Assembly: GCA_029834535.1 (NCBI GenBank)
Contig: JAQMWT010000681.1
Coordinates: 1-64,000 of the forward strand
Source: Chrysophaeum taylorii
Taxonomy: Eukaryota > Sar > Pelagophyceae > Pelagomonadales > Pelagomonadaceae
DNA: 64,000 bases
Direction: 5' to 3'
A model generated the notes under the pieces. That model saw only the letters and a list, made by a program, of their open reading frames with translations, did no database searches and was not told the DNA's origin. Of this stretch, positions 2,926-63,499 are shown one piece after another; position 1 is the stretch's first letter; each line of letters opens with the position of its first letter. The position numbers were made by a program, and so were the translations under genes.

Positions 2926-2934
2926 TTCACCAGC

Positions 2935-32838: not shown

Positions 32839-32946
32839 GTTTGTCTTTAAATGTCGACTGCTAAGAGGGGGGTGTGTGTGGGGAGCACGAAGGATGTGGG
32901 TGGGTTTGTGGGGTATGTTTGTCTTTAAATGTCGACTGCTAAGAGG
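32839..32946 (-). mobile_element. Very short LINE copies L4 and L5
   Basis: L4 (32839-32915) and L5 (32916-32946) are tails with only 75 and 30 bp of sequence, each beginning tgtttgtctttaaatgtcga. Confidence 0.7.
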
Positions 32947-44648: not shown

Positions 44649-45284
44649 CTAGAGGGAGCCCGTGATGAACACGGCGTTAGACATTCGAGTCGTTAATGGT
44701 AGTAAGAGACTAAGAAAAGAAGGGCTAGGGGTCACTAGTCTAGGGTTAGGAGCACTGAACACCCCTTCGAGTGAAGCTATGGTGTACGTATGTGCACGTG
44801 GCTCACTGGCATATATGTCCCAGTGATTTCGTTCGCTGACCATGTAATGACGGAGGGCTTCCGAGTCATACAGGTCGGTGAGGAGCAGGTTCGGTGGGGT
44901 CTCCAGGAACGGAGGCAAGTCAGCGCACGAAGTAGCGAGGTAAGAACCCTCGTCTTTATGTGTGATGATGTCTTTTTGTTCATTGTAGTCCACGTTTACC
45001 AGGCACCGTGCGAGTCGTGGGAAATCCACGGTGGACAGGAGCTTCGAGAAGAAGTCTGCCACATTGGCCTTACTGGGACACCAGAAACAGCGTATGCGAC
45101 GTGGGTGACCATTATCGCCCTGGTAATCGCGAATTCGGAAAAAGCGAATGTCGATATGCTTGGTCCGAGGCGTGGATTTCGGATGATTGGCTGTTGATGC
45201 AGCTCCCTCATTGTCAATCAGCAGCGGTATAGCGGGGACCTCGTGACAGGTAGGAAACCCAAACATGAAGGGGACTGATTCCAT
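44649..45284 (-). pseudogene. Copia X RNase H, C-terminal part
   Basis: Reads LIDNEGAASTANHPKSTPRT, KHIDIRFFRIRDYQ and FWCPSKANVADFFSKLL, the standard end of a copia RNase H. It is separated from the upstream ORF by a TGA (about 45294-45296) that replaces the Trp codon kept in element B (DEAVWFHT). After VDFPRLARCL it continues into a poorly conserved tail that probably overlaps the LTR. Confidence 0.75.
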
Positions 45285-45296
45285 GAGTGTGTGGAA

Positions 45297-46655
45297 TCAT
45301 ACTGCTTCATCCTCGGTGGTCGCTGCGGCAATGATCTCTGCGTGTAGTGTTGACTTGGCCGTAATGGTTAGTCTCTTGGATGACCATGACACTAGACATC
45401 CGAACACGTATACACGGCAACCAGTCGTCGATCGCAGGCGATAATTTTGTGGGTCTGTCTTCGCTAAAGGCGAGGGGCAGCGCGAGATGTTCTTTAGTTC
45501 GGGATACTTGGCGGACAGCAGCTTCACGATGTCGGATGACAAAGCTGAGCCGTCTGCTTTGTAGACCAAGCCATGGTCTGGATTTGTGTGTAGATACCTG
45601 AGCGTCACTTCTAACCAAACTACAGGTAGGCGTTCGGGCGAGTGCATCCCTTTGCAAGCACGGTTCAAGATGGTGGTGATGTCCGGTCTGACCGTGATAC
45701 TCAGGTAGATGAGAGAGCCACACACTGTTTGAAATGAATCCCGAATTTTTGCTTGCAGGGGGGTCAGCGGTACGTGGTTCTTCTTGGACAGGTCCTTAAA
45801 ATCGGCGTTGTGCGGGATGCGCTTATGCGAGAGTTGTTGCCCCAAATTGAGTTTGGAGAGGCGTTCTTTGACTTTGTGTCCTGCACTCGTTGTGAACACC
45901 CCCTTGACCGGATCATAGGTACACTTGAGACCTAGAAACGATTTAACGGCTTCTACCCACTTAACGCTGTCTCCGAATTTGTTGAAGAGCGCGTCTTTGA
46001 CTTTTTTGATGAGCGCGGTGTCTGTGCCTGTTATGAGCAGGCCATCGGCAAAGGCAGGGATTGCACACCACTGGTCCGTACTAGGGTCGTGTTTCGTGAA
46101 CAGTGTTGCGTCATTCCTGCTGCATGTGAAGCCGAGGTCGGTCATGAACTTGTTCAGATGTTTTGAGAAAAGGGCGGGTGACGACTGGAGTCCATAGAGG
46201 GCTTTGATCAGTCGGAAGCCGATCTTGCCTTTTGGATTCATCTGCCGAACTTTCTCAGTGATCTCTGGCTTTACTTGTATGCCCTTGGGCAGGTCCACCC
46301 AGATAGGCCTGTCGATGAGGCTTTGAATGAACGCCTGTGGGACATCACAGTGATGCACAGGTAGCCGATGGTGCGTGGCGACTGCGATCAGTGTGCGACC
46401 AGTGGCTAGCATTGTCGTGGGTGAGTAGACGCTGTAGAAGTCGAGTCCTACTCGGGCCAGGAAGCCTTTTACCACACATCTGGCCTTGTGCTTCAGGTAA
46501 GCACCGTTTTCAGTTTTGACCTTGAGAACAAGACGTGTAGGGAGAGCGGATCTGCCTTCGGGGACGAGAGATAGGCGGATGACGCCTTTGTCTGTGATGC
46601 CATCAAATTCTTTTGTGATACCTTCCAGGTGCTTGCGCTTCTCGTCATTGGGCAT
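45297..46655 (-). pseudogene. Copia X reverse transcriptase and RNase H
   Basis: 452 codons without a stop. RT blocks: KHKARCVVKGFLARVGLDF, SPTTMLATGRTLIAVATHHR, HHCDVPQAFIQSLIDRPIW, RLIKALYGLQSSPALFSKHL. The active-site box is AFADGLLITG, where YVDD is expected: the second Asp is Gly. Then VCGSLIYLSITVRPDITTIL, RLRSTTGCRVYVFGCLVSW and TAKSTLHAEIIAAATTEDEA. The frame is open over the whole domain but the Asp-to-Gly change should abolish polymerase activity. The next frame is cut by TGA. Confidence 0.8.
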
Positions 46656-46688
46656 TCTCTTTGGCTCTAATATCCGGTCAGGCGAATA

Positions 46689-46968
46689 TTAAAGGTCACC
46701 GGTCTTGATGTCAGGGCCATCCCCAGGTTGCGTCGAGAGCGGGTCAAAGCAAGGTGAATTGCTTCCACTTGACTGACGTCTGTATCCAGGAGCTGAGAGC
46801 GTAGGTCCTTGTTGGGGTCGTGGTGTTACCCAAACAGATGATCGTTCTCGCATCCACTGAACAGGGAGGTCCTGGAGTTGTTTGGCGCGTCCACTGCCGG
46901 CGCGGCGTCTGCGGATCCTAAGAGTGCCAGCGAGATGTCGTCGTAGGTGGTCGGCTCGCACTGGTATA
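46689..46968 (-). pseudogene. Copia X Pol linker, distal piece
   Basis: Continues the linker interrupted at the element D insertion site (QCEPTTYDDISLALL by reading through). It matches element B at 13270-13510. Confidence 0.6.
46964..46968. repeat. Target site duplication GTATA, left
   Basis: GTATA at 46964-46968 and 56408-56412 flank element D exactly. Joining the flanks gives ggactatac.agtgcgagc in the host element, matching ggactctttcaatgcgagc of element B. Confidence 0.9.
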
Positions 46969-47165
46969 TAGAGATAGAAAATCCGAATTAGCGTTAGTAC
47001 CCCCTATTCTAGGGCTAGTTCCCTTAACTTTATCACCTTTTGATTCAAGAAAACGCTGTGTTATTCACACCGGCTGTCCTCGTTCCAGGAGTCAGATTCG
47101 AGGACAGACTACCACTGTTCTCGCGCTCTGCTGAAGGGTAACACAGTTGAAATTGCTGTTCTCTA
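46969..47165 (+). repeat. 5' LTR of element D
   Basis: TAGAGATAG...TTCTCTA, 197 bp, with 6-bp terminal inverted repeats TAGAGA/TCTCTA. It carries the promoter and start of the transcript by analogy; no TATA box is obvious. Confidence 0.92.
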
Positions 47166-47184
47166 GGTATTTGGCACCAGACCC
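47166..47184 (+). promoter_or_regulatory. Putative primer-binding site of element D
   Basis: GGTATTTGGCACCAGACCC directly follows the 5' LTR. The TGG would pair with a tRNA CCA end; the tRNA was not identified. Confidence 0.4.
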
Positions 47185-47250
47185 GGTATCAGCAGAGCCT
47201 CAGGATTTCAATACGAGTTCCGCTCACTGACGTTCCTGAACCCAAGCAAA

Positions 47251-49409
47251 ATGCCAACCAATCAAGAACTCCAAAAGGAGATGCGAGAACAAGAAGCTCG
47301 CTTAGAAGCAAGGCATCAAAAAGAGATGCAAGACCAAGAAGCTCGCTTGATGGCACAATTCAATGCTCAATTAAGCGCGCTGGCCGCCCAAGTGCAAGCA
47401 ACGCAAGCACCACCACCTGCCGTCGCTGCTGCGGCTCCACCCCCCCCTCCAGCTCAACAAGATCCCAAGACCAAAGCTAACACTTTTAGTGACCCACCTA
47501 GCGCCGTTCTCAAGTCAATGGACTCGGCTCAAGTCACGCCCCAAATGCTTTCGTTTCGTGTCATGCAGTTGTTCGTTGAACATCTGATGCCTGAAACAGG
47601 CATAACCCAATATTTTTTGCAGGGCTTCTACACGTGGGAATCCGTCTTGCGCGGATCTAATGACCTCGCTGACGCTCTTCTCGGCCACTGCATCAAAGAA
47701 TACGACAAAGATCCCGACAACCACTCTACCGCCAGGAACACGCGAGATTCCCAAGCCCGTTACGTCTACTACAAAGGCGTCTACCGCAAGTTCGGCAAAC
47801 ACTTATTGGAGAACGTATACGAGCCAAAGCTCCAAGAACTTGAAGATCAAGACAAGGACCCGACCGATATGACAACAGGCAAGTTGTATCCGATCACCCA
47901 ACCTCATCTCCAAGGAAAAGAAGCCGACTTCATCGTATACCTCCGCGAGACCGTGCACCCCCTGTTTCGCCGTTTCCTACATGCCGGTAGCGACTCCGTC
48001 AAGCACCCGGCATACGACGAAATCGATGCACTCGGATCTTCCCATCCGATAGGACTCGAATTTGTGCTCCAAGCTCGCCTAGCACTCGACAAGCACACGG
48101 GCCAGAACCACGTCCACCATGCCCATTACGTATATAATGCCTTCCTGGACACGCTGTTCAACCCGGAGATCCACGAGCCTGCGCACTATATTGAATACAT
48201 GCGTCATGTCCAGCAGCAACTGCGCCAGATTACAAACGATGCTACTCTCCAACTTTCCGACCACAAGATTCTCGAGGTTTCCACCAACTGCTTCGCTTTA
48301 AGTACCCTCCAAGTTTGCCTGACACCCGCGCCCCAACACACGTCAGGGGCTTCGCGCGTCTTGCTAACTGTCTGCGCACTCCCAACGACTCGCTGTTACT
48401 CGACGAAGACAAGGAAGCCATCAACCACCTTCCCAAGCTCATCGCTCGCATCACAGTCATCTCCACTTTTGAGCGCAACTTTTGGGCTCACCTCAAGCCT
48501 CACCCAACTCTCAACTTCAAGCCTTTGCGCTTCGTCACTGACTTTGGTCGTCTGCCGACTAAAGACAAAGACAATCCACGTTTTCGCTCCCGCCGTCATG
48601 GTCTCCACTTCGCCGAAGACGATGATGACAACTCTCCCTCTGAAGATGAAATCCCTCCGGACCCCACTGAAGACACCGACCCTGTTGCTGTTTTTCTCAC
48701 CGAGGCCGACCTCGATCAAGATGACGACAACGATCTCATTCAACATCTACACGCCTATCGAAAGAAACAGGCTACACGACATCCCAAGAACCCCCCCCCA
48801 AAAAAAAAGGCTCACAATCCTCGCTCTCCGTCGTACTATGACATCAATGACAGTCCTAAGCCCAAAGCCACCCCTGTCACCCCACCGAAGAACAAGCACC
48901 GTCCCCGCGCTCCTCCTGTCACCCCCGACAAACGCGAGCACCCGCATCTTCGCAAGGTCGACTTTCCAACTCAACCTCATCCACCTAAACCATCTACTCC
49001 TGACCAGCGATTCAAGGTCCCCCTTCGTGAAGTCCGTCGCAAGCTCCAAACCATACGGAATCTCAGCCAAGCCGGTCGCCAACATACGTCCAGCTCCGAG
49101 CGCATGAGCAAGCTAATCAACCTCATCACCACCATCTCCGACGAGATACTTCTCTCCGAAGCCGATAACGATGCCGCAGAATTTCTTCAGGTGCTATCGT
49201 CCGATCCTCCGGAAGATCCACCTGATGAGGGCGAAACAGAGGAAAAAGATGACCAAGGCCATCTCGGTTTCTATGATGACCACGGACACCTGAGCCTCTA
49301 CGACGACACCATCCCCGAAGTCCACGATGAGGATGATTCCGCCGAAGATTACGCACAACGTCACAGTGACTACATGCGTGCTCTCCACCAGAGTCAGCTT
49401 TTTCGCTGA
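47251..49409 (+). pseudogene. Element D gag, one frameshift
   Basis: ATG 47251, about 85 bases after the LTR. Residues 1-50 are a coiled coil (QKEMREQEARLEARHQKEMQ), then an Ala/Pro-rich linker and a helical capsid-like body (for example EYMRHVQQQLRQITNDATLQ). A frameshift at about 48290 moves the reading frame to 48290-49409 (FERNFWAHLKPHPTLNFKPL, then an acidic and basic Pro-rich tail). No zinc knuckle. The stop TGA overlaps the ATG of the next ORF (TGATG, 49407-49411), a layout compatible with termination-reinitiation. Gag forms the particle. The gag-only element at 23422-25518 has a similar coiled-coil/Pro-rich N-terminus. Confidence 0.7.
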
Positions 49410-51565
49410 TGGTTGCCGACGACGCCTGTGCCGCCAACCACATCTTACTCAATCAGGCACCAAGCCTCACGATGACGAATTTCCCGACATCATCAACCAT
49501 CTCACCCAGAGTCGCAGATTTTCTTTGTGCAACTTACACTCCAGGCAAGACCTCAAAGAAGACTAACTCGCTGCACGGATGCAATGGACCCGGCACTGAA
49601 ACTTCATTGATTGACGGTGGCGCATCTTTTTGCTTCACACGCACAATTCGACACTTTGTTCCCGAGTCCATACGCCGGATTCCCGAACACACCATACGCA
49701 TGGGAAGAGGCACCTTGACCAGCCATTTCATCGGTGTTAAACCGTTGTACTTGCAGGCCGCAGGTCTCTCCTCAAAGGACGTCAAAGAATCCACCGGTTA
49801 CGCTTTATATCTCGTATTTCTGGTCGTCCCGCAATTCCGAAAAGGTCTGCAGGTTATCGCGACATCTCAGCTTAAAGCTCTGAACGTCCAAGCAACCGAC
49901 CCGCCATTGCCGCACGAACCATACCTCTACGAGCTTATGAACACGTCGACCGCGGATCCCCACGACTATAAGACGCTTATAGGAAAAACAGCTATAGTTC
50001 TCGCCAATCGCCAAACAAATGGCCTGTTGTCCCTGCCGTCTCATCCAAAGCAAACATTCCGCGCTGTGGTTAGTTTCCACACTGGAACACGAATGTCACT
50101 CAAGGATGAAATCGCAAACATCACACAGCATGTTGCAAAGACACGCTCGCAATCTCACATGTTAGATTTCGCTAAGCTCCAGCATCACTCCATCTTTTTA
50201 TCTGACCTCATTCGCCTCCCGCGTACCGTCGGCCAATACGCGTTTACTACCACAGCGGATCTATCTGTGCAAGCACAACCCCCTCCGCTAAAAACAGCTA
50301 TTATCGCAGGTGGACTTCACCAAGAAGGTTTTACCTCTTTTCGCAAACGCTTCGACAACCGTATTACTGTCGTGGTCACCTGCGAAATTCACCCTATTAT
50401 GCGCGCTCGCGCGCAACAACTCTTCCCGCATGCTCAGCATTATGCGGACCTCAGGAAGCTCAATGCCGCTTTACAAACCGGCAAAATCAGACTACCTCAT
50501 TTTGACTTAGCGGTTTTCACACTGCCATGTCAACATTTGAGTGTAATGAAAGAATATGACGGCTACGCCACTCCGGTGACAGCCGACCTTTTTGTCACAG
50601 AACAAATCCGCTTTGTTCGCTGCACGCTCCCGACCTACGCCATTGTCGAGAACGTCCCTCCAAACCCCCGAACTCATCACGAGTACACCCAACTCGCCAA
50701 ATGCTATCAGCGCTTAGGCTACTTCCGACACTCCGGTGTCTACAATGCCTCCGCTTTTGGTGACGTCATCAGCAAGACCCGCTATCTCGCTGTCTATGCC
50801 CGGCACCCGCTCACCGAGTACAACCTCGAGAAAAGCGCTTCTCCATGGTTAACATCTCCTCCGAGCATGGTTCCCTTTCTGGGCCCCAGCAACACTATCC
50901 CCGACGATCTCTGGATCGCCAACCCCGCCCTTCGTGGCACCGTGCCCCGCTCCACCTTGACCTACTACCAACACAAGGCCACTTTTTCCTACGCGCCCGC
51001 CAACGCCTCTAAACTCTCGATTTCCGAAAATGCCCGCATCTGCCAAATGCTCGCACGCTTCACCAAGCCCTTCACGGATCTCGGTCTAGATGCCGACGGC
51101 ACCCCCTACGCCACCATGGCGTCCATTTCCCACCTTCTGGTTTTCACATTACTGCACAACCATTTGTCGCAACACCCCACTCTCGCCGCTTGGAACACCA
51201 TCCGCTGTTTTTATGCCTCAGAGTCTCAATGTGCTTGCCATTTGGATGGAGGCATCACCCGCACCGCCGCTACTGCCGTCGCATGTAGCTACTTCCCGCG
51301 CGCCTCCCTCACCCTACATTCCAGCCCCCCTCAGATATTGGACTGTTCCCATCAACCCGCAGTCTTCTCCCCAACGCAGGCTGTTCCCTGGATGTTCCCA
51401 AGGGCACCGCCTTTCTGGTCGTCGCCTACACCACCTCCTTGGCCGCCGCTCACCGCTGCTCGCGCCCGTCCACTTGGGTCCACTAAATATGATATATTTG
51501 AATATGAATCGTTCGCATCCTGGCTTTGCCGCGATCGACCCACGAGGACGAATTACTCTCGATGA
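49409..51565 (+). CDS. Element D Pol N-terminal: protease and DNA methyltransferase
   Basis: 718 codons. Protease: SLIDGGASFCFTRT with DGGA in place of the usual D[ST]GA (residues 69-72). Methyltransferase: motif I AIIAGGLHQEGF (297-308), II TCEIHP (324-329), III YADLRKL (345-351), IV FTLPCQHLS with nucleophile Cys374 (codon 50528-50530), VI AIVENVPP (411-418), VIII SKTRYLAVYA (455-464). LSISENARICQM (536-547) is a possible motif IX. These are the standard C5-cytosine DNMT motifs in order. DNMTs transfer methyl from SAM to cytosine C5. From about residue 640 the frame departs from coding sequence, and the true continuation is in the frame of 51090-52019. ATG overlaps the gag stop. Target specificity cannot be read. 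Confidence 0.85.
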   Translation: MVADDACAANHILLNQAPSLTMTNFPTSSTISPRVADFLCATYTPGKTSKKTNSLHGCNGPGTETSLIDGGASFCFTRTIRHFVPESIRRIPEHTIRMGRGTLTSHFIGVKPLYLQAAGLSSKDVKESTGYALYLVFLVVPQFRKGLQVIATSQLKALNVQATDPPLPHEPYLYELMNTSTADPHDYKTLIGKTAIVLANRQTNGLLSLPSHPKQTFRAVVSFHTGTRMSLKDEIANITQHVAKTRSQSHMLDFAKLQHHSIFLSDLIRLPRTVGQYAFTTTADLSVQAQPPPLKTAIIAGGLHQEGFTSFRKRFDNRITVVVTCEIHPIMRARAQQLFPHAQHYADLRKLNAALQTGKIRLPHFDLAVFTLPCQHLSVMKEYDGYATPVTADLFVTEQIRFVRCTLPTYAIVENVPPNPRTHHEYTQLAKCYQRLGYFRHSGVYNASAFGDVISKTRYLAVYARHPLTEYNLEKSASPWLTSPPSMVPFLGPSNTIPDDLWIANPALRGTVPRSTLTYYQHKATFSYAPANASKLSISENARICQMLARFTKPFTDLGLDADGTPYATMASISHLLVFTLLHNHLSQHPTLAAWNTIRCFYASESQCACHLDGGITRTAATAVACSYFPRASLTLHSSPPQILDCSHQPAVFSPTQAVPWMFPRAPPFWSSPTPPPWPPLTAARARPLGSTKYDIFEYESFASWLCRDRPTRTNYSR

Positions 51566-51925
51566 CCCCAAGAGACTCATAATGTCCAAAGCACGTCCCA
51601 CTTACGCGGACTATGTCGGCCACATCGGAGACACGCTTCAGAAAAGCACCAAGTGTTACTCGGTCACTGGCTCGTACACAACCAACACGAGCTACTCCAA
51701 CGCCTTGCTGCTGACCTCTCCAGACCACATCCGCTATGCGACCCTCAACGAAATCGCAAAGTTTGGACACCACTCGGACCCGGAACTGCTCCGTCTGTTC
51801 CAACAGCACCCGCCGTACTTCGCGTTTAAGGCACTGGCCAACGCCGTCCCGCACAATATGCTGCAGGCAAAGTACAGCGCTGTTCTCGCACTCCACGAAT
51901 CGCACCACCACGTGAACTTTCACAT
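51300..51925 (+). pseudogene. Element D methyltransferase C-terminal part
   Basis: In the frame of 51090-52019 the protein continues with ITLDDPKRLIMSKARPTYAD, then SPDHIRYATLNEIAKFGHHS (motif IX-like) and FAFKALANAVPHNMLQAKY (motif X-like, GNAVP changed to ANAVP; about 51820-51870). The stretch between motif VIII and here (about 350 residues) would be the target recognition domain plus an insertion. A frameshift near 51330-51480 and the 23-bp duplication at 51922 bound this segment. Confidence 0.6.
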
Positions 51926-51966
51926 CGAATGGGCAACAATACGCACATCGAATGGGCAACAATACG
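51920..51966 (+). repeat. 23-bp tandem duplication
   Basis: cacatcgaatgggcaacaat followed by acg occurs twice in direct succession, changing the reading frame between the methyltransferase and the integrase. Confidence 0.85.
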
Positions 51967-53326
51967 CAATGGCATCCCCAGCCCAGGAGACATCACCCAG
52001 TTTGCAGACTTCTTCATGAGCATCACCAGCCGTCTCTTAGCCGAGGTGGACCTCAACCTCACCTCCCTCTTCATTGCCATAGCAGATGCTCACCATTATG
52101 CAATCCGCAAACCAAGCAAATCGAAAAATATCGAGACGCTTCTTGCAGAGGCAACCGTTGCTAAAATCCGAGTCGACAAGCGACCCAGCCCACCTAGCGC
52201 TTCGACTGCCGCTCTGCCTCCCTTGCACAAGCCCGGCACCATTCAGCACGCCAAAAGAGTGCATTTGGTCACTCGCTGGCACCGCATACACCACCAGCAA
52301 CCAGAGATTCTTCGCCGCACGATTGCCGCCAATGTAACGAATCTCCGCCCAGGTGATGATCGGTATCTGCAAGACTGCAGTGAATGCAAGCGCTGCCAAT
52401 CGCATGTAAGCTTCAGTCACAAGAACAATTCCTGGTCACAGGATGAACTGGCCTATGCTCCTGGCCAACACCTCCACATGGATGTATCATACCCGAGCAT
52501 CAGCAAGTGCTACGGCGGATTTCGCTACATCATGCACTTTGTGTGTATTATCTCAGCACACAAATGGGTCTATTTCCTGCGGAAATTAGACGCACAGGAT
52601 GTTCTGGCCGGCATCCTCTATGTGGTCAATGTGATTAAGGTCGAATTCGATGTCAATGTGAAAATCATCTCGTCTGATGCATTCTCGACTTTCCTCTCCG
52701 AAGCTTTCCACCCGCTCAAGGTGCAACTTGGCATCCAGTTTCAAATCCTTGGTCACCACCTCCACCAGCGGAATTTCGCGGAAAACATAATCAAGGAAAA
52801 CACCCGAGGCATTGTAGTTCGCCTCCTCGACCTTCGCAGTGTACGCATCGAAGGAAAGTCTATTGCCGCTGAGTATTATCACCCAATTGCGCTACTGCAT
52901 AAGATCCAAGCCGACAACCAGCGCTCTCATGGACTGCCCTCGCGCACAAACATGGCATGCACCGTCCCCCGGCGCATCATGTCACCCATGGCACCGCTCT
53001 TGAAGCTCCTTCCCTTTGGTGAGCCTGCCACCTTTGTCTACCCTCAAAGTCACAAGCTGGAACCCTCCAGCGTCTCCGCCTCCTACTTCCATAGTAACAA
53101 TTATCTCCCGAACCTCCCCGGCACGGACCGATTTATCCGTGATGTTCACAGCTCTATCCTGCTTGTACATCAAGGGCGATATGGAAAAATCGTCACCTCT
53201 AACGACTTTCACGTTGACGCATACATGCCAGTCAACCGCAACAAGGAGATCGAACGGATCAAAGCACTCGCACAGATCCCAACAGAGGCACGACAAGAGG
53301 ACCCGCTACCAGCTATAAGCGAATAG
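51929..53326 (+). CDS. Element D integrase
   Basis: 465 codons. An HHCC-type finger (RWHRIHH, H118 and H122; DCSECKRC, C150 and C153) is followed by the catalytic core with Asp185 (HLHMDVSYP), Asp250 (IISSDAFSTF) and Glu285 (RNFAENIIKEN), i.e. close to DD35E spacing. The C-terminal part is long and ends in TEARQEDPLPAISE before UAG (53324-53326). The next ORF starts two codons later in the same frame (UAG CAA AUG). The first ~10 codons come from the duplicated 23-bp unit, so the natural protein is a continuation of the methyltransferase frame. Integrase inserts cDNA, giving the 5-bp duplication seen here. Confidence 0.8.
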   Translation: MGNNTHIEWATIRNGIPSPGDITQFADFFMSITSRLLAEVDLNLTSLFIAIADAHHYAIRKPSKSKNIETLLAEATVAKIRVDKRPSPPSASTAALPPLHKPGTIQHAKRVHLVTRWHRIHHQQPEILRRTIAANVTNLRPGDDRYLQDCSECKRCQSHVSFSHKNNSWSQDELAYAPGQHLHMDVSYPSISKCYGGFRYIMHFVCIISAHKWVYFLRKLDAQDVLAGILYVVNVIKVEFDVNVKIISSDAFSTFLSEAFHPLKVQLGIQFQILGHHLHQRNFAENIIKENTRGIVVRLLDLRSVRIEGKSIAAEYYHPIALLHKIQADNQRSHGLPSRTNMACTVPRRIMSPMAPLLKLLPFGEPATFVYPQSHKLEPSSVSASYFHSNNYLPNLPGTDRFIRDVHSSILLVHQGRYGKIVTSNDFHVDAYMPVNRNKEIERIKALAQIPTEARQEDPLPAISE

Positions 53327-53329
53327 CAA

Positions 53330-54802
53330 ATGCCGGAAGCTAGACAGGAATCGACAGATGAGGGCGAGACTCAAGATGACGACCATGAGGATAAACCGGA
53401 AGATGACGACGAGCACAAAGAACCGGATCCAACTCCCGCTGCCGATCCAATTCCCGTCAGCGACGAGACACCCGAACAGAATTTTTCGTTCCTCGACCGG
53501 CCGCCCCCGCCGGATGGTAGCATTCCGATGCCCAAACGAAATGACCGATTAGAGGTTGTTCTCGACGATTCAGGTTTTACTCCAGTTCTCGTGCATCGCA
53601 ACCAAAGCGACAAACTCAAAGCAGATCTCAAGGACGAGCGCGGATTCCGCATCCCTAAAGATCAACTCTATATCGTGAAACGTGTCGACGATGGAAAACT
53701 TTTCACCAGACGCATTATCGCTTCAGAGTATGGTCGCAACTGGAAATACCAGCAGGAGCAATCCACGGCTCGCGCCACAGCCAACATGTCCAGCACATTG
53801 ATGTTCCTCATCAGTGTCAGCGCTCTGCACCAGGGCCAAGCTGTTAGCATCGCATCTGATCTCAACATTAGAAGAGATGCTAAGCCGCCAAATGATGTCC
53901 CGAAAGGATGTCTCCTAGCAAATACCACACAAGACTATGGTATCATGGGCGGCACTGCACTGGATCTGCAGAGAGAAACCGACGCAGACCTCGTGTGTGT
54001 CGACTTCCCAAGGCAGCCGTACCATTCATTTGTATCGGTCGACCACCTGGAAAACGACAACTCTGTTCTCGAGAACTATGTGTGCCACGACGAACTGTCA
54101 CCGGCAGAGTACTATGCGCGTCAATGGAACCAAGAATTCTGTTGTATGGGCTCCTCCCTTATGTGGGACATCTCCGTGCATCAGCACTACCACTTAGCTT
54201 CTCGTTACAGGCATGCCTTCATGCATGATTCTGGCGAACTCGGACACCTCTTCCTAAGTCAAAGTGATCCGAATCAAGATATTCCCCAAGAAGCCATGGA
54301 CTATGACTTGCAGCACATCGATCACGTCGTGTTGCAACTCGTGACTGCTGAAGATATTGTCTATGAGCTTGAGAAGATTGTCGAACTCAAAGGACTCAGC
54401 GAAGAAGATAAGTTAAAGCATATCGCTTCGATTCGCAAAGAAATAGAAGACCTGTGTTCCAGCGGTGTATCTGAGCTTGAACCTTTACCGCCAGACCGTT
54501 CGTCTATCTCGACGAAACTCGTGCTGAATATCAAGTATTTTGCTGGTGGCACCCCAGACCGCTACAAAGCTCGTATAGTTGCCCGAGGTTTCCTGGCACG
54601 TGTAGGCATTGACTTTTATGCCACATCCTCACCAACCGCAATGCTCGCCACCAACCGGTTATTGCTCGCCATCGCTGTGAAGCACAAACTCCCGGTCGCA
54701 CACGCGGACATTCCGCAGGCATTTATCCAATCGGCACTCGATCGCCCGGTGTGGATTGACTTACCTCGAGGAATACGTGTCTCGCAAAATCTTATCCAGT
54801 AG
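53330..54802 (+). CDS. Element D Pol linker and RT, N-terminal part
   Basis: 490 codons, in frame with the integrase ORF but separated by UAG. The first ~60 residues are strongly acidic. The middle has a long linker (DRPVWIDLPRGI near the end). RT starts with ISTKLVLNIKYFAGGTPDRY, KARIVARGFLARVGIDFYAT, SSPTAMLATNRLLLAIAVKH and HADIPQAFIQSALDRPVW. It stops at a TAG (54800-54802) in the middle of RT. Downstream the same frame continues (LRLVKARYGLEQSALLW), so the stop is an inactivating point change. Confidence 0.8.
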   Translation: MPEARQESTDEGETQDDDHEDKPEDDDEHKEPDPTPAADPIPVSDETPEQNFSFLDRPPPPDGSIPMPKRNDRLEVVLDDSGFTPVLVHRNQSDKLKADLKDERGFRIPKDQLYIVKRVDDGKLFTRRIIASEYGRNWKYQQEQSTARATANMSSTLMFLISVSALHQGQAVSIASDLNIRRDAKPPNDVPKGCLLANTTQDYGIMGGTALDLQRETDADLVCVDFPRQPYHSFVSVDHLENDNSVLENYVCHDELSPAEYYARQWNQEFCCMGSSLMWDISVHQHYHLASRYRHAFMHDSGELGHLFLSQSDPNQDIPQEAMDYDLQHIDHVVLQLVTAEDIVYELEKIVELKGLSEEDKLKHIASIRKEIEDLCSSGVSELEPLPPDRSSISTKLVLNIKYFAGGTPDRYKARIVARGFLARVGIDFYATSSPTAMLATNRLLLAIAVKHKLPVAHADIPQAFIQSALDRPVWIDLPRGIRVSQNLIQ

Positions 54803-55300
54803 ACACAGAAAAACCACCCAGAGTCGAAGCTCGCTCTCCGACTCGTCAAGGCTCGCTATGGCCTCGAACAGTCAGCTTTGTTGTGGAATATCAAACTCGA
54901 CTCGTTTCTTCGACAACATGAGTTCGAACGCTCACAAGTCGACACTTGCCTCTATATAATTTGAGATCGATATATCAACAAATGTGTTCAACTATCCGTT
55001 TCGGTCGATGACCTATTGATCACTGGTACCAACACTGCCAAAATTACATCTCTTCGCACTGCTCTGGAGAAGGAATATGGCAAAGGTACATGGCATGACA
55101 ACATCAGATCCTTCCTTGGTATCGATGTCCACTACAATGTCTCCGCTGGTCATCTCACTATGAATGTAGCAGCGAAGATCACCAAGATGCTTGCTGAGCA
55201 TAAGCTCAACCTACATAATATGGACGTCCCCTATTCGGACATCCTCATTCAAAAACCATCTGTAAACTTATCTCAGACTTGGCTCCTACCTTAGACGTAT
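54803..55300 (+). pseudogene. Element D RT, C-terminal part
   Basis: Continues RT: LALRLVKARYGLEQSALLWN, a TGA at about 54961-54963 (after CLYII), then KCVQLSVSVDDLLITGTNTA with VDD of the active site and NIRSFLGIDVHYNVSAGHLT. A frameshift near 55270 joins it to the RNase H frame. Confidence 0.8.
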
Positions 55301-55352
55301 TACGCCAACATCTTCCTCACTACTGTGGCACTAGCATTTACTTGTCTGTCAC

Positions 55353-56168
55353 ATGTCGCCTGACATCACCACTTTGTGCAACAAATGCTGCAAGGGCATG
55401 CACAACCCAGATCAGACCCATCTTCTGCACTTGTATGTTTTACTTCGCTACTTAAAGGGTACTCCGAATGATTCACTCGACTATTCATCCGACAGCCCCT
55501 CTATTACGCCCTTTATTCAGCATCTGATCAGCCGCTATTCTGAACTGCATCACCTTCGTTCACCCATTATTTGTTTTACTGATGCAAGTTTTGCTGACCG
55601 TTCTGACCCTCGCTTGCGATCCAATTCTGGTGCATGTATCTTCGTCTTTGGCAGTCTCGTATTCTGGTCTAGCAAACGCCAAACTCTTACTGCCAAAAGC
55701 ACCATGGAAGCTGAACTCATCGCCGCCAGCGCAGCCGCCGATGAATGTCACTGGTTTCACCAGCTATTCTCCTCCCACCCTTATTTATTTTCGTGTGATC
55801 AAGCTCACGCTATTCCCCTGCTTATTGATAACGCTAGCGCATTACATGTCGCTAATCACCCTAAAGTCAGTGCTCCTTCTCGTCATATCAATTTACGAGA
55901 ATTTCGCATTCGTGACTACCAAGCCAACTCGGTCATTCGTCCTCTCTGGTGTCCTACTCACTACCAGGTCGCTGATCATTTTTCGAAGCTCCTACCACGC
56001 AATTTATTTCACAAGTTCAAAAACGCCTACGGTGTTCACTCAACCTCCTCTTCACCGCCATCTCGTCAAGTTGCTCTTTCAGTTACTCTTTCTGCTACTC
56101 TTCCACCGTACGACTCTGTCCATAACACTCTCTATGTTCTTGTCGATGGTAAGACGCTTCCTGCTTAG
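55353..56168 (+). CDS. Element D RNase H
   Basis: 271 codons. RPD/SPD start, CKGMHNPDQTHLLHLYVLLR, then ICFTDASFADRSDPRLRSNS, WSSKRQTLTAKSTMEAELIA, ASAAADECHWFHQLF, LLIDNASALHVANHPKV, INLREFRIRDYQ and LWCPTHYQVADHFSKLLPRN. All RNase H acidic residues (D of FTDAS, E of MEAE, D of IDNA, D of VADHF) are visible. It ends 43 bases before the 3' LTR. Out of frame with the preceding RT part. Confidence 0.85.
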   Translation: MSPDITTLCNKCCKGMHNPDQTHLLHLYVLLRYLKGTPNDSLDYSSDSPSITPFIQHLISRYSELHHLRSPIICFTDASFADRSDPRLRSNSGACIFVFGSLVFWSSKRQTLTAKSTMEAELIAASAAADECHWFHQLFSSHPYLFSCDQAHAIPLLIDNASALHVANHPKVSAPSRHINLREFRIRDYQANSVIRPLWCPTHYQVADHFSKLLPRNLFHKFKNAYGVHSTSSSPPSRQVALSVTLSATLPPYDSVHNTLYVLVDGKTLPA

Positions 56169-56189
56169 TTTGATCCAGATTTCGCTCAC

Positions 56190-56210
56190 CGAGTTCGATC
56201 TGTGAGGGCG
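56190..56210 (+). promoter_or_regulatory. Polypurine tract of element D
   Basis: CGAGTTCGATCTGTGAGGGCG ends exactly at the 3' LTR start. The gag-only element has the same sequence with one change at its own 3' LTR. Confidence 0.7.
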
Positions 56211-56407
56211 TAGAGATAGAAAATCCGAATTAGGGTTAGTACCCCCTATTCTAGGGCTAGTTCCCTTAACTTTAGCACCTTTTGATTCAAGAAAACGCTG
56301 TGTTATTCACACCGGCTGTCCTCGTTCCAGGAGACAGATTCGAGGACAGACTACCACTGTTCTCACGCTCTGCTGAAGGGTAACACAGTTGAAATTGCTG
56401 TTCTCTA
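56211..56407 (+). repeat. 3' LTR of element D
   Basis: 197 bp, TAGAGA...TCTCTA; followed by GTATA (56408-56412). Confidence 0.92.
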
Positions 56408-57861
56408 GTATAGTCCCTTGGATTCGAGTTCGAGTTGAACTCTCGCAGGGTGTGTGCGACGTAGCATGGTGCGCTCGGGGTGAATGAGGGCAACTAGCTG
56501 CTCAACCATATTGGAGCCGTTGGCGGAGTTGAGATCCGGTTTTACAAGTTGGTTATCGATAGCGTGCCTTAGGTCCGAGGCAGCTCCTCCAAGCTCGCTG
56601 AACTCTGTCGTGTTGCGGGCGTTGGCGTATGGTTGTTGCTTGAACCTTGTGAACGCTTCGGTATATTCTTCTGCTTCTTGTGGGTGTTCTGCGTTGGTGT
56701 GCGCAGTTGGGGAGAAATCCACCCCCTCGAGGCGTACGGCATGACTCTAGAGGCTTTCGTACGCGTCGTCGACGGCAGGGTCGTCGCTGGTGTCGACGCA
56801 CGAGGCGACCAATGTCGGGTGAGTGGCAGCGATGGTGTCCATTATTGATTGCGCTGCGAGGTGCGCGAGCGACTTCGAGCGGGAGCGGGTGGTGGAGGTG
56901 CCTTTGTACCGCCAGGTGTCACCACGATTACACGGGGAGAGGTGCTTGGTGTACCGGGTGCGGTGCGGGTCTTGGAGATCGACGATCACGCGAGTGTCCT
57001 CCGGAGGTATGGGGGTACCGTTCGCGTGTTTGAGCGGGGTTTTGCCGCGTTGGTTGGGGGCGATGAGGGCATCTGCCCAACTATCGTGCCAATCGGCACC
57101 GTGCCATAGGACTTCGATGACGTCGCGAGTTTGGGGGGTACGGTGGTACACGGTACGAGGACGACGTTGGGACCGAGTAGGGCCAAGGGCGTCGTCGGCA
57201 ACATCTGGGGGCGGCGTTGCACTCGGAGCGGAGGAGTTGGCGACCGTGGGCGAACGGGACAGGGGAGCGTCGGGTGCGTTCGGTGGTGCCGGAGTCGGGG
57301 AGACTTGGCGGCGGCGAACTCCGGGGAGGCGACGAGGCGGGGTGCGTCGGGCTGGTGGGTGTGGGGTTGGGTTTGTCGGCGGCATTTTGAGGTTTCGCGT
57401 GCTGCGTCAGGGAGGCGGTGTCGGGGATTCGGCATCGGACTCGGACTCGGACGACTGGTGGTCATCGTCGTCTTCTGGCGGAGCGGTGTCGTCGGGGACA
57501 GGCCAGCAGCCGGGCAATCGCAGCGAGGGTGCTATCGCCGGGAGAGACTCTGGCGGAATTGGCTGGATGCTTCTTGCGCGGTGTTGGGTATGACGCGTGG
57601 ATCTTGCAGGGAGCGGTTGGCGTTGGTGGCTTGGTTCACCAGTTGCTGGGTGCGGTATGCACGCCAGTCGGGGCGGAGGTCCTCGGCTTGGAACTGCCCA
57701 GTGGTGATAATGTCACCAGTGTCAACAGTTGGATGAGCGACTCGCGGTGATTGGCGATATGCAGCGCATGCAGTGGGAGCATGTCGGCGCTTCCAAGCTA
57801 TATGCCGCGCACGGTCTTGGGTTCGCGCTTGTTGCGATGGTGTGGGTTGATCAACACCCAC
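56405..57861 (-). pseudogene. Copia X Pol linker
   Basis: Read in three frames (57532-57861, 56747-57385, 56405-56722). Recognisable by homology with B: GDIITTGQFQAEDLRPDWRA, VIVDLQDPHRTRYTKHLSPC and TTEFSELGGAASDLRHAIDN. It ends at ELESKGLY, exactly where element D is inserted. Pro/Arg-rich, no enzyme motif. Confidence 0.65.
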
Positions 57862-58814
57862 GAGCCAAAGGGGTAGAGCTGGGAGCTCATTTCCTCTTGT
57901 CGTGGGGACAGCACCTGGTGGGGCGTGTGGTCAACATGTTCACGACGGGAAAGGAGTCGCGACCCTGTATTGTTGTGCACGGTGCTGTAGAACAAGCTCG
58001 AGAACACCCAGTAAGTTGACGGGTCGATTTGGTGACCCTCGACCGTCTTGCCGCTCAGGCCGTCCTGTGCCATGGTGGCGCGTTTGGTGAGACGACCCAT
58101 GAAATGCTCTGCTGGACTGCCATAGTGCAGCTGATATCGTCCAAGCGTCTCAATTTGCAGGGAGAGCTCGGTCTTCATGTTGTTCAGCTCGGTGGCCTGG
58201 ACCTGTTTGGCCGCGTCAGCGAGCACTACTCGCACTCGTATGTCGTACCTGATTTTCAACAGGTTCACACCACAGAGGATTGCAGCGAGGGCGGTCTTGG
58301 CGTCTTGGCGGTTAGCGGGGTGTACAACGCCAAAGTCGCATTTCACACACACCATCACGTAGAGGTGAGGGTAATGACGGTACACCGAGTGGATCGTCGA
58401 CTCGGCGACACCCAGAGCGAGAACTCTGCCAAAGATAAAGGAAAGCTCATTTGGAGTGTACGTCTCGAGATTTTTGGTCCACGGTAGGTTGTCCAGATAC
58501 TTGGCCATCCTGTCGTCTGGGACTAGAAATCTCAGGTACCGAGAATCACCGGGCTGTAGGTTGCAGACGTTGGGGTTGGCTCGGATGTTGCGTTCCATCA
58601 TATCAGGTGAGTGCAGGAAGATGGACCTGTACCAACTGACTTTGAAAAGCTTGGCGGGAAAGCCATGATGCGCTGGAGGCAACTCGGGGGGGCATGCTGA
58701 CGTCGGGATGGAGTCCGCTGTTTTGGTCTTTGCTGCTGCCGTTGAGAACCGAACCGCCTTGATCCTGTAATCAGGCTTTTGCTTAGGTCGCCGCTTCTTT
58801 TGATGCTTAACCAT
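57798..58814 (-). pseudogene. Copia X integrase
   Basis: 338 codons open. SWYRSIFLHSPDMMERNIRA, then LQPGDSRYLRFLVPDDRMAK in the finger region, where the paired Cys of D are not conserved. Core: ALGVAESTIHSVYRHYPHLY (the first Asp is Gly; element B keeps Asp), VVLADAAKQV (second Asp) and SPAEHFMGRLTKR (Glu). Missing first Asp should abolish strand transfer. It runs into SSLFYSTVHNNTG and FGSWVLINPHHRNKREPKTV. Confidence 0.65.
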
Positions 58815-58844
58815 GGCAGCTAGCGCAGAGTGGCTGTGAGAGCC

Positions 58845-59946
58845 CTAAATGGCGATCCGGACTGATCTGCACATGCCGCTGTGACGTCGACACTGCATAG
58901 CAGTGTGTCTGCGTCTTGGACCTTGGACACCGGTGGGTTGCGCGGTCGCAATGTCAGTGATATCACATGACGCGAAGTGTTTAGTCGCTACACGATGGAG
59001 CGACAAGTAAAGCGCCAAGAGCTGCGGGGGGGCGATCATGGATGCCTGCTCCTTGAAGACCTGTCTGGGTGGCATCTTACGCCATCGCTCGTGCAGTGCT
59101 GCGTCGTCCGGAGCGCAGATACGTGCCGTGCGGTTTCCTCAGGTGTGACGTAGCGGTATTGATGAGAGCTCATGCGTACCAATATAATATATATATATAT
59201 CTGCCGTCGGAGGTGAGCGTACGTGCGGGTCCAGAAGGCAGGCAGGTGCGTAGACCTAGCGTGGTCTGCTTCTGGGGTAGCTCGTAATGCCCGTCACGAT
59301 GAGCCAGAGACATGCGCGTCTGGGGATACAGCGTGTTGCGTGGGTCGGGAACGGCGATGGTCTCCTGTTGGTAGTTGAGCGAGAAAGCCTGGGGGTTCTG
59401 CAAGTTGATCAGTTCTGCTACTCGGAGACTAAGTTCTGATGAGTGCCTGTCCATCTCGGGGAGCATTGGTCGACATGCAAATGCAGCAACAAGGTGGCCT
59501 TGATGTGCATCGAATCCTGATACGGCATGACCACATAGCTTAAATGGCGCACCATAGGCATTTCGCGTGTGTCGGCCAGTGGGCTTTCGTTGCTGCTCGA
59601 GGGTCGGTTGTCCGCCTGTGAAGAAGCCGAGAGTAACCAGGGCGTCCGGTCGGAGGTGACTGACTTCCGCGGTGGTGAACTCGAGCGGATCGTGCGAGGC
59701 GCGTACAACGAAGAAACCAGCGTTGATTCCAGCGTCCGAGAACGTTTCCCGGAGTAATATCCACGTTTTCTGAGCTAGATGCGAGAGCCGGCACGATGCT
59801 TGCATTATTGCAGGCAGAGAGCGTAAGTCCTTGTCCAGTCCCAGGGTGATGGTGACTGTGGACCGTCTCTGTTGTTTGGTTTCACCCCCTGTGTCAGAAG
59901 CGTGGGGCGCGTGACACCGCAAGAGAGGAATAGTGTGGGAGACCAA
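58845..59946 (-). pseudogene. Copia X methyltransferase-like domain, C-terminal part
   Basis: 59170-59946 reads QRRSTVTITLGLDKDLRSLP, AGINAGFFVVRASHDPLEFT, NAYGAPFKLCGHAVSGFDAH and QKQTTLGLRTCLPSGPARTL. After a frameshift, TARICAPDDAALHERWRKMP (motif IX-like) and VFKEQASMIAPPQLLALYLS (motif X-like) follow. The first 200 residues occupy the target-recognition position. I do not recognise them as any known domain by sequence. Confidence 0.45.
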
Positions 59947-61330
59947 ATGGTTGGCATGTGTGATGCGACGGCATCATCTGGGTATCGATGGGTCCTCTGG
60001 GCTGCGAAGAACGCGTGGCGCGGTGGGGTCAGAGTCGAAATCCACGGCAAGCGGGCATCTCGGAACGCGAAGCCGGCGCGGGGAATGACCAGCGAGCGGG
60101 GAACAGCGGGACCCGAGAGAAGGAAATTTTGCTGCGGCGTTATCGAGGAGGACAGTCCCGACATGCGGGGAAGGTCCAGAGGTGAAAGCGGAGCTGTGCT
60201 GTGAATCACGAACCATCGAATCTTAGAGACGGGGGCGCCCACGGAAGCAGCGTCGCAAATGGCTGCAGAGGAATAGAAACCAAAATTGCGGGCTTGAGCG
60301 AGGACGTGTTGGTGGTGCCCATGATTCGTCTCTGAGGGAGGGGTCATCTCTTCGAGAATGCACGTGGCATGGAGGGCCAGGGCGATGCGAAATCGCAAAT
60401 CGGAGCGGAACATCCAGGCCAAGCGGGCGTCAGGATAACTGTTGAGATCCTTGAGTGTCGACTCCGAGGTGCATTCGGCGGAGTACATGACAACGTCAGC
60501 AGCGACTTTGAGCTGACCACAAGTCACCAGACGCGGAATGAGTGTAGCATCGGAGCACGTGACAATGTCTGGGCCAAAACGCTGACGAGCCAGTTGCAAG
60601 AGGGATGGTTGTTTTTCGCATACGAACACAACGCGGAAGTTGGCGGCGAAGATGCGGTTGTTGCGGAACAGAGAAGAGCCTTCAGTCGAGACACCGGTGC
60701 ACACGAGCGCGAGGGTGCGGGGCTGAGGCGTGCCGCGAAACTCGCCGGAGGCCGACATGGAGAGTATCATGTGCAGCGCGCCCGAGGACTGTTGCGTCAG
60801 TATAACGGCGGGTAAGTCCGAGCGGGCCAGTTTGCGCAGATTGGGGTCGACGGCTTGAATGTGGCCGAGATCACGAGACAGCGAAAAGGTGTCGTGCGTG
60901 AGGAGGGACCGCGGGGTCTTAAACTCGTGAGAGTGGCGCAAGGGGAGCTGGATGAGCCCGTTGAACGTTTTCTCACACGTGAAGACAGCGGCGGCGGCGT
61001 CGATTTCGCGATAGTCCAGCGGGAGAGCGGCAAGTCCGGGCGACTTGGGGGTCCCGTATGGAACGTGCGGAAGGGGCGCGTCGAAAATGATCGCGTTGAA
61101 CAAGTGACCAACTGCCGATGAGAGGAGAAAGAGATCCTCTCGAAAGTCATCCAACAGGAGGGCCGGCGCGAGATACACAAAGCCTGTGTCGGGATTGCGA
61201 GCGTCTGCAACCACGAGTAAGGAAAGTGCAATCTTGGTGGCCATGACCGACGTGGGGCCCTGTGAGATCTTGACAGGGGTAACGTCGACGTGGGACCCCT
61301 CGATGACGAGAGGTGACGACGAGTGGCCGA
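59805..61330 (-). pseudogene. Copia X methyltransferase-like domain, catalytic part
   Basis: 479 codons from the internal Met at 61244; the frame is open from ~61330, where it is fused to the protease (GATFNFGHSSSPLVIEGSHV). Putative motifs: I RTLALVCTGVSTEGSSLF (176-193), II VFVCEKQ (206-212), IV YSAECTSES with Cys258, VI CILEEMTP (295-302), VIII SKIRWFVIHS (340-349). Compared with canonical DNMTs, PCQ is AECT and ENV is EEM, so the domain is highly diverged. The open frame over 480 codons, longer than anything else in X except gag, is striking. It could be a degenerate DNMT or one repurposed for another role. Confidence 0.5.
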
Positions 61331-61480
61331 AGTTGAAGGTGGCACCGTATCCGAAATGGCGACGAGCTTTGTCTTGGGAGCGCGGTCGTGCTTAAGCGAC
61401 ACAGGGTCGGCGGAGGATGAGGAGAAGCACGAAAAGGGTATGCCGTTGAGGGACATTTCGAGGGGATGGGGAGTGGTGAA
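61250..61480 (-). pseudogene. Copia X aspartic protease
   Basis: VSLKHDRAPKTKLVAISDT is followed, after a one-base frameshift, by GATFNFGHSSSPLVIEG, reconstituting the DTGA pattern also seen in element B (SDTGATFNVG). The Met at 61456 (SLNGIPF) corresponds to 8396 in B. It would process the polyprotein; broken by the shift. Confidence 0.65.
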
Positions 61481-61909
61481 GGAGTACAGGAGAGAGCTAG
61501 TAGGGGAACCTAGGGATGAGGAGGTAGGGAGCTGCGGGAAGAACTACTGGCAGCGGAAGAGGCGTATACGGGAGGAGAAGCCAAAAAGGTGTGGGCTCGT
61601 GAGACGAGCACACTGCGTGTACGAGCCGCCCGCGCAGTGCTCAGGGGTTTGACGGGCCGTCAGCTCCGTCGACATCGTCATCCGGCTCTTCGGCTGCAAT
61701 GAAGGCATCCACGGCGGCCTCCGTGTCGAGCGATTCTTCGTCGAATTCGCGGGTTAATTGGAGGAGGTAAGACACGGCCGTATTGACTTTCCCTTTGCTG
61801 CCACCCGCAACAGCTCGGACTTCCTGGAGGATGGTCTCGATGAGTTGATCGCGACGATCACACTGGGGCTTTTTGAGGAGGGCCGAGACTTTCTGGGCTT
61901 TCTGTATGA

Positions 61910-63484
61910 TTATGGAGACAACGTCAGACGGAAGGCTGCTCGAGTGCGGGGTTTGCGGCGCGAGATCGGATGGGGCGCCACCACGGATACGACGGTGTTT
62001 GTGGGAATACCGCTCCGGGGGTTTGGCGCGAGGCCGAAGGCACCCGGGTTGCGTGGGGGGTCTTCGGGTTTGCTAGGTTGGTCTTGACGCAGATACGGGT
62101 GGAGAAGCTGCTTGCGGACATGCGGAGCGTCGGGCGGTCGTTTTGGGGGACGACGAGGGGTCAAGCCAGGGATGACCCGATTGTCGAACGTAGACGTGGA
62201 CCGGGGCTTGTCGGAGCCGCGATGGGGACGACGGGTCGGCTTGCGTTGATGCTTGGCGTTCCCGTAATGCAGCTCGTGGTCAGACCCGTCATCAACGAGA
62301 GTCGCCAAGGCATCCTGCAGGAAATCGCTGATCTGGGCTTCTTCCTCATCTTCATCTTGGATGGCGGGGTGCGCCTCGTGGTCGTCAGCGTGATCACTAG
62401 CTGAACCATCCGAGGGAGACTCCGGTCCCCCGAACGTAAGATGCGCCTGATGCGGCGAGATGGAGGCACGATCCGAATAATCCGCGAGAGTGCGAGCCTT
62501 GAGGTTGGGGTGAGGTGCGGTTGGGGTCGCGTGATTGGTCCGACGAGACAGCGTAAGGAGCGTGTCGTAGATCCGGGAGACGGACCCGCCCCGCACGAAC
62601 GGATGATCGTGGTATGTACCCGGGCACGTGAGCTCCTGGTACATGCGAGCGATGGATCGATGCCATGGGTGAGCGTGCGGATCTTCGATAATGTTGGGGG
62701 GGTAGTGGGTATTGAGAATGACGGTGTCGATGTGCTGGACGATCTGGGCTTCAGTGAGGCGTTGAGCTGGTTCGAAGGACTCCATCAGCTTGAGGATGTT
62801 TAGAAAGAAGCCGACGTGGTGAACAATGTCAATTGTGCGAGGGTCATGCGTGAGCGCATGGTGCTTGACGTTGCGCACGAGCTGTGTCATGTTAGCTGGG
62901 ATATGGGCTTCGAGGAGCTTGACCGTCGCCGCGAGCCGTTGAATAGCCGGCGCATTGGACGCCGCTATGGACTTGATAGACTGCAAGATACTTATGTGCC
63001 CGCGAGCAGGATTCTTGGGCGTCAGGTGTGAAATGAGGCCATTGAGAAGCCCATCAGCAGCCAGGTTCAAGTCAGAGGGAGTGTAGTACTCCTCGGGTCG
63101 AAAGAAAGGGTGATATCGGTTAAGGTGCGAAACCAACGGGATGGTGGCACCGATCGAGTTCAGCATTTTGCGGTATGCTTCGAGAAAACTTGGCAAAAGG
63201 CGGAAGACACGACCGCCATGTATGACCTCCGGGCAGACGTTGGAGGTGACGTGAGCGAGGTCTCCGGGCTCAGGGTGGTCTTGGGTGTACCTGTGCATGA
63301 AGGAGAGCAGCCTGGCGTCAAACACATGCGATTGGCGCTCATACGCGTGGTTCGTCTCAAACAGAAGCTGATTGAGGCGGCGATGCGGGAGCTGGTTCAG
63401 CAATTGTTCCCAGTTGTGCTCGAAGCGGAGAGTGGAGTCCCAGGAGTTGTCGCGACACAATTTCCGGAACGTACTACAGTCCAT
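61910..63484 (-). CDS. Copia X gag
   Basis: 524 codons, open. Largely helical (TFRKLCRDNSWDSTLRFEHN, FLEAYRKMLNSIGATIPLVS, LRNVK-type segments, SIARMYQELTC), consistent with a capsid. An acidic stretch (IQDEDEEEAQISDF) and a basic C-terminal tail (HQRKPTRRPHRGSDKPR) follow. No zinc knuckle. ATG 63484 is chosen as the first Met after an in-frame TAG at 63529-63531. Element B retains the C-terminal half. This is the best preserved gag of the X/B family here; the end after ~62050 shifts to a Pro-rich frame and may include an indel. Confidence 0.7.
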   Translation of the reverse strand: MDCSTFRKLCRDNSWDSTLRFEHNWEQLLNQLPHRRLNQLLFETNHAYERQSHVFDARLLSFMHRYTQDHPEPGDLAHVTSNVCPEVIHGGRVFRLLPSFLEAYRKMLNSIGATIPLVSHLNRYHPFFRPEEYYTPSDLNLAADGLLNGLISHLTPKNPARGHISILQSIKSIAASNAPAIQRLAATVKLLEAHIPANMTQLVRNVKHHALTHDPRTIDIVHHVGFFLNILKLMESFEPAQRLTEAQIVQHIDTVILNTHYPPNIIEDPHAHPWHRSIARMYQELTCPGTYHDHPFVRGGSVSRIYDTLLTLSRRTNHATPTAPHPNLKARTLADYSDRASISPHQAHLTFGGPESPSDGSASDHADDHEAHPAIQDEDEEEAQISDFLQDALATLVDDGSDHELHYGNAKHQRKPTRRPHRGSDKPRSTSTFDNRVIPGLTPRRPPKRPPDAPHVRKQLLHPYLRQDQPSKPEDPPRNPGAFGLAPNPRSGIPTNTVVSVVAPHPISRRKPRTRAAFRLTLSP

Positions 63485-63499
63485 CGGATTGAAGGAACA

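Follow-up and report, generated by a model that had tools for sequence, protein, structure and literature searches.

The window analysed here, a stretch of 64,000 nucleotides from Chrysophaeum taylorii (GenBank assembly GCA_029834535.1, contig JAQMWT010000681.1, positions 1 to 64,000), contains on its plus strand, from 46969 to 56407, a Ty1/Copia retrotransposon whose Pol region carries a C5-cytosine DNA methyltransferase (DNMT) domain embedded between the protease and the integrase. This anatomy we regard as near certain. The element is one of many copies of a family that we denote family A, whose lineage seems to have kept the enzyme for a long time and may use it to mark its own copies chemically.

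The element is bounded by two direct long terminal repeats (LTRs) of 197 bp, located at 46969–47165 and 56211–56407 and differing by 4 mismatches and no gaps, and is flanked by the 5-bp target-site duplication (TSD) GTATA at 46964–46968 and 56408–56412. Both features, together with the Copia class, had been proposed in a preliminary description made from the sequence alone, and all three were borne out. The LTRs of the window copy run from TAGAGA to TCTCTA rather than showing TG...CA ends, which are usual for Ty1/Copia elements but do not define them. When the window pair was compared with four other family A LTR pairs that we fetched (five elements), the start TAGAGATA was present in all ten LTRs and the end TCTCTA in nine, the tenth reading TTTCTA. 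The LTR pairs of the four other copies differ at 4 of 194 positions (plus 3 gap positions), 10 of 196, 6 of 196 and 10 of 197; an exact 5-bp TSD flanks three of them, and the fourth shows a one-base difference. A possible primer binding site, TGGCACCAGACCCGG, was read from the sequence at 47172–47186, where three of the four other copies have GGGCACCAG. The purine-rich tract GTGAGGGCG (56202–56210), directly 5' of the 3' LTR, is found with identical letters in all four.

Between the LTRs, a gag-like region (47251–49409) consists of two overlapping frames; it is named by position only and matched no Pfam family in hmmscan. The following aspartic-protease-like region (49595–49897) gave no profile match and was recognised by its position and by the sequence IDGGAS, which we take to be an aspartic-protease motif. 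The DNMT domain (50285–51920) is followed by an integrase (51938–53323, core 52466–52900; rve at 3.1e-4, below the cut-off), a reverse transcriptase (RT; 54314–55207) and an RNase H region (55359–56072). The last is named by position, and stretches within 55275–56072 match five proteins from other records (P0001, P0002, P0003, P0005 and P0006). The integrase lies upstream of the RT, as in Copia elements, and the RVT_2 match (2.6e-16 in the window copy, 9.5e-28 in copy L052) identifies a Copia-type RT and not one of the LINE, DIRS or Gypsy classes. The order protease–DNMT–integrase–RT–RNase H (PR-DNMT-INT-RT-RH) given in the preliminary description holds, with the protease resting on motif and position and the RNase H on position. 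The single polyprotein described there is not what the window copy contains. In L052 (contig C314) one frame of 1868 aa spans the protease-like region, the DNMT, the integrase and the first part of the RT; measured against it, the window copy changes frame near 51.4, 51.5 and 51.94 kb, has in-frame stops at 53324–53326 and, inside the RT, at 54800–54802, and is broken again beyond.

The embedded domain is identified as a DNMT by its sequence, its motifs and its predicted fold. Using hmmscan, PF00145 matched the frame 49370–51562 at 2.4e-8 (34.2 bits, cut-off 22). TIGR00675 agreed at 2e-8 (34.3 bits, below its curated cut-off of 100.65), two methyltransferase families of the PHROG collection matched with a best value of 9e-11, and tblastn against phage records recovered a methyltransferase of phage vir335 at 9e-6. 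The profile search proposed in the preliminary description placed PF00145 above its cut-off and found RVT_2, with rve below. A profile search of the PDB with the window copy's domain alone returned one unrelated weak match only, and with family A alone only two methyltransferases at E about 0.1. With the profile of the wider group the matches were significant: M.HaeIII and M.HhaI were the best, and DNMT2 structures were also matched, at 1.5e-5. A methyltransferase fold was predicted for the catalytic half only, and folding 321 aa from one sequence gave a model of no use (predicted local distance difference test score, 32). Three profile libraries, the PDB search by profile, the predicted fold and the number of copies rule out a chance resemblance to a DNMT.

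The motifs of the domain include those already recognised from the sequence (I, II, IV, VI and VIII). Motif I lies at 50294–50332, the catalytic Cys codon of motif IV at 50528–50530, the ENV of motif VI at 50648–50656 and the motif VIII Arg codon at 50780–50782. The domain extends beyond motif VIII to about 51.9 kb: alignments of eight copies open through the domain and of five relatives revealed, after a (P)T.T...N stretch, a further one that resembles motif IX and then motif X (51834–51851). Motif X reads LANAVP in family A (ANAVP instead of GNAVP), IANAVP in P0002, P0005 and P0006, IAQAIP in P0001 and IASCIP in P0003. A long insert after motif VIII (about 50828–51590) makes family A some 200 aa longer here than P0005 and P0006; in P0005, the PF00145 match covers positions 48–320 of 324. 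Among 17 aligned family A copies, chosen for a PCQ/ENV stretch without a stop, PCQ is present in all and ENV in 15, and the catalytic Cys, the motif VI Glu and the motif VIII Arg are kept in all six members aligned. Family A combines the catalytic Cys, the Glu, the Arg and motif X of C5-cytosine methyltransferases, with PCQ as motif IV, as opposed to the PCN of DNMT3.

The domain recurs on many contigs of the genome (70.8 Mb, 697 contigs). At least 73 stretches match the protease–DNMT frame, a lower bound because 61 of 795 candidates were scored, and 48 of 50 fetched loci, some of them overlapping the same place, belong to family A. A PF00145 search of the genome gave 57 matches, and the 30 loci fetched from these contained just two genes outside family A, the same two that account for the remaining fetched loci. 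One is a DNMT2-like gene (L021, contig C634; PF00145 at 4.1e-19) with the sequence PPCQPHTR, which we take to be a DNMT2-type motif; its neighbour on the opposite strand is a gene for a chlorophyll-binding protein. One light-harvesting gene suggests a host alga with a secondary plastid. The other (L022, read in L051 on contig C621) combines DNMT and SNF2 domains, as in DNMT5. A search with the integrase, in which 86 of 942 candidates were scored, listed 99 places; for 21 of the best 30 the list of DNMT matches had an entry immediately upstream in the same orientation, and the remaining nine, once fetched, all held DNMT sequence (eight with part of motifs I–VIII, one with the later part only). 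No clean DNMT-less form was found among these best 30 of the 99 places. The preliminary description had called for a genome search and had named a lack of other copies with the domain in the same place as an outcome that would count against it; the search gave the opposite, as many copies hold the DNMT there. A single copy or a chimera is likewise ruled out by family A copies on many contigs.

The family A DNMT is under purifying selection. Ratios of nonsynonymous to synonymous substitution (dN/dS) were calculated pairwise as ratios of sums over up to 33 family A copies, with dead copies included, which raises the values. The catalytic half of the DNMT gave 0.17 (517 of 527 pairs used), its middle insert 0.24 (396/406) and the motif IX–X stretch 0.32, with a median of 0.18 (265/292). 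The same calculation yielded 0.13 for the protease (345/372), 0.15 for the stretch preceding the DNMT (333/404), 0.35 for the N part of the integrase (149/152) and 0.085 for the integrase core (77/78).

The family A element is itself inserted in a second Copia element on the minus strand (family B, 44934–63526, interrupted by 46969–56407). Its parts are a gag-like region at 61910–63526, named by position, a DNMT-like frame at 59808–61391, an integrase at 57774–58733 and an RT/RNase H region at 44934–46739. Both insertion flanks adjoin in another family B copy at 8.5–14.4 kb of the window, the alignments covering 2561–3266 and 3271–3624 of the searched piece at 77% and 75% identity. The RTs of the two families share 48% identity over 146 aa. 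The frame 59808–61391 had no Pfam match and was assigned by its alignment to the family A DNMT (BLASTP, 4e-15; hhalign probability, 96). A second family B DNMT-like stretch lies at 8504–9871 (plus strand). In family B, motif IV is ECTSE in two window copies and in one copy each on contigs C560 and C214; in L056 a Gly replaces the Cys beside a stop, and L061 reads KCTSES. Its motif VI is EEM and its motif VIII S(K/R)(I/V)R. Family C, which is more distant, is represented by L063 (contig C526), with ECYSET and EEA in its DNMT-like domain. The family B domain is also under purifying selection, dN/dS being 0.10–0.32 in the nine pairs with dS above 0.3. The single very close pair gave 0.61, and the five pairs with L063 were saturated.

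Relatives in other records were reached only through the RT. Among 5.8 billion proteins, 526 matched the L052 RT region, and 120 of these were listed. The protease–DNMT frame and the DNMT alone found no relatives in the same collection at the thresholds used, both being word-based searches that depend on shared 5-residue words, and short peptide patterns found none in viral and prokaryote contigs. Precomputed Pfam assignments place PF00145 together with RVT_2 in P0001 (2428 aa) and P0005 (3103 aa). We then ran a family A profile on 129 proteins (the 120 listed, three family B or C proteins, both host DNMTs and four phage methyltransferases) and on 129 shuffles. It matched P0001, P0002, P0003, P0005, P0006, all three family B and C proteins and three of the four phage methyltransferases, whereas the remaining 115 listed proteins and all shuffles gave no match. 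The profile is narrow, since it missed both host genes and the fourth phage protein. In the relatives from other records the DNMT again stands upstream of the integrase, and motif VI reads IEM, NEM, LEI or SEM. A third Copia-like stretch in the window (1243–4704, plus strand) has P0005 and P0006 as its best matches; the left end of the window truncates it, and any DNMT portion would fall beyond that edge.

In a quick, unrooted RT tree of 54 rows (nine chosen and 45 thinned from 111 others, family C left out), two family A copies, family B, P0001, P0002, P0003, P0005, P0006 and P0012 were set apart from the 45 ordinary Copia elements with an SH-aLRT support of 99. The frame of P0012 starts at the integrase and so gives no reading of its DNMT state. 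A DNMT tree of 16 rows paired family B with C, P0001 with P0002, and P0005 with P0006.

We propose that the DNMT gene was captured, perhaps once, by an ancestor of the group and that the enzyme, made as part of Pol, would act within the virus-like particle or next to it, on the newly made nucleic acid of the element. The most likely substrate would be the cDNA before or at integration, and a new copy might thereby resemble host or silenced DNA or gain shielding from attack on foreign DNA. Taken as a whole, a Copia Pol whose captured DNMT acts on the element's own nucleic acid would be the best explanation, and we consider the chances of this mechanism to be evenly balanced. With a similarly balanced confidence, this may be an old and perhaps widespread Copia lineage in which the DNMT would be a core Pol domain like the integrase, captured once before families with about 39–50% RT identity split. 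Its branches with non-canonical active sites (PCT/IEM, TCQ/LEI and ECT/EEM), of which at least the family B branch is under purifying selection, would then suggest a changed modification or target. If so, retrotransposition in this lineage would regularly include DNA modification, which would not be a late oddity.

Several observations weigh against this proposal. Long-lasting CpG methylation of the copies would be expected to cause CpG decay, and no clear footprint of self-methylation at CpG was found in either transition rates or CpG observed/expected ratios. Across 471 pairs from 32 copies, the transition rate at CpG was 1.17 times that at other C and G at third positions and 1.24 times at all positions; the ratio was 1.10 in 92 close pairs and 1.03 in family B (six pairs, four copies). 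C/T change rates by three-base context ranged from 0.036 to 0.129, GCT and ACG being highest and none far out. The CpG observed/expected ratio was 1.04 in the window element, 0.97–1.09 in six other copies, 1.11 and 1.05 in family B stretches, 1.16 in a Gypsy-like stretch, 1.12 in the window at 26–44 kb and 1.26 and 1.44 at the host gene loci. Any effect of CpG methylation on the copies is at most weak, which suggests that the mark may be transient, not at CpG, or on RNA. Furthermore, the Copia DNMTs formed one clade in 27% of bootstrap trees. One clade was not rejected (approximately unbiased test, p-AU 0.305), and since the DNMT tree does not show it, a single capture is not established. Finally, families B and C and several relatives have changed residues in motif IV or VI.

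The lack of a clear CpG signature in DNA would also suit an enzyme that modifies RNA, either the genomic RNA or the tRNA primer, as DNMT2 does on tRNA, thereby tuning reverse transcription or RNA stability. As a Copia protein it would be packaged together with RNA, and the group profile matches DNMT2 structures as well. Its best matches are nevertheless the DNA enzymes M.HaeIII and M.HhaI, and motif IV reads LPCQHLS, unlike the PPCQPHTR of the host's DNMT2-like gene; we consider action on RNA unlikely. It is more doubtful that the domain now serves Pol mainly by binding nucleic acid or as a structural part, with catalysis secondary or lost in several families. The ECT/ECY and EEM/EEA that replace PCQ and ENV in families B and C, the selection nonetheless acting on the family B domain and the motif VI variants of the relatives would suit such a role, but the conservation of PCQ and ENV in family A and of the catalytic Cys, Glu and Arg across the aligned members argues against it. 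It appears improbable that the enzyme acts in trans on the DNA of the host, where it would silence competing elements or shape the methylome. In favour are the dozens of family A copies, with other Copia elements and a Gypsy-like element nearby, and the finding of only one DNMT2-like and one DNMT5-like gene outside family A among the 30 PF00145 loci fetched, yet the encoding copy would gain no obvious advantage. We give almost no credence to a functionless domain that arose by chance capture of a gene or as an assembly chimera: the window copy is broken, but the domain recurs at nearly all fetched loci, on many contigs and in proteins of other records, under purifying selection.

Several other elements occupy this repeat-rich window. 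Gypsy-like Pol frames, judged by eye, lie at 18066–22618 (minus strand), and two closely similar frames of about 400–500 aa, at 14587–16113 and 31640–32860 (both minus strand), represent a repeated element.

With a DNMT-bearing Copia, the retrotransposons that have taken up DNA methylation include one more class, and a domain order that is new among them. The association looks old and has been retained by the copies examined. Why a parasite should carry the enzyme used to silence it becomes a testable question, because a small genome, many copies and both canonical and altered active-site branches are found together in one genome.

Within the open-licence literature searched, a Copia element of the order PR-DNMT-INT-RT-RH may be new, in keeping with the suggestion of the preliminary description that the order is undescribed, although such a search is not proof. 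The parts of PMC5890265 (de Mendoza and colleagues, 2018) available to us place DNMTs in LINE, DIRS and Gypsy elements, state that Copia elements of Symbiodinium have no DNMT domain, and report de novo CpG methylation in yeast by the SymbioDIRS DNMTs. The corresponding parts of PMC6338049 describe Ty3/Gypsy and DIRS elements with cytosine methylases, and those of PMC9998398, PMC12477816 and PMC11453091 contain no DNMT-bearing Copia of PR-DNMT-INT-RT order. One sentence of PMC12344493 (2025) names LTR Copia together with DIRS as retrotransposons carrying DNMT3; its section 5 specifies neither an element nor a domain order nor a host, and the source cited there is PMC5890265, in which the LTR-type element belongs to Gypsy, whereas the family A DNMT carries no DNMT3 assignment. 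SymbioDIRS-Dnmt3 and SymbioLINE-Dnmt of Symbiodinium (PMC5890265, as far as its available text goes) are likewise many-copy, retrotransposon-encoded DNMTs, carried by DIRS and LINE elements and not by Copia. M.HaeIII, M.HhaI and the phage C5-methyltransferases (phrog_116 and phrog_363), the best profile and fold matches of the family A domain, are free-standing enzymes, whereas this domain is embedded in a polyprotein, with a long insert following its motif VIII. KnitGypsy-Dnmt3 of the charophyte Klebsormidium nitens, described in the same parts of PMC5890265, shares with family A terminal repeats, a C5-cytosine methyltransferase in the Pol frame, several copies and purifying selection. It is a Gypsy by domain content, with DIRS-like repeats and a DNMT3-type enzyme, whereas family A has a Copia RT, plain 5' and 3' LTRs, a DNMT between protease and integrase, and PCQ as motif IV.
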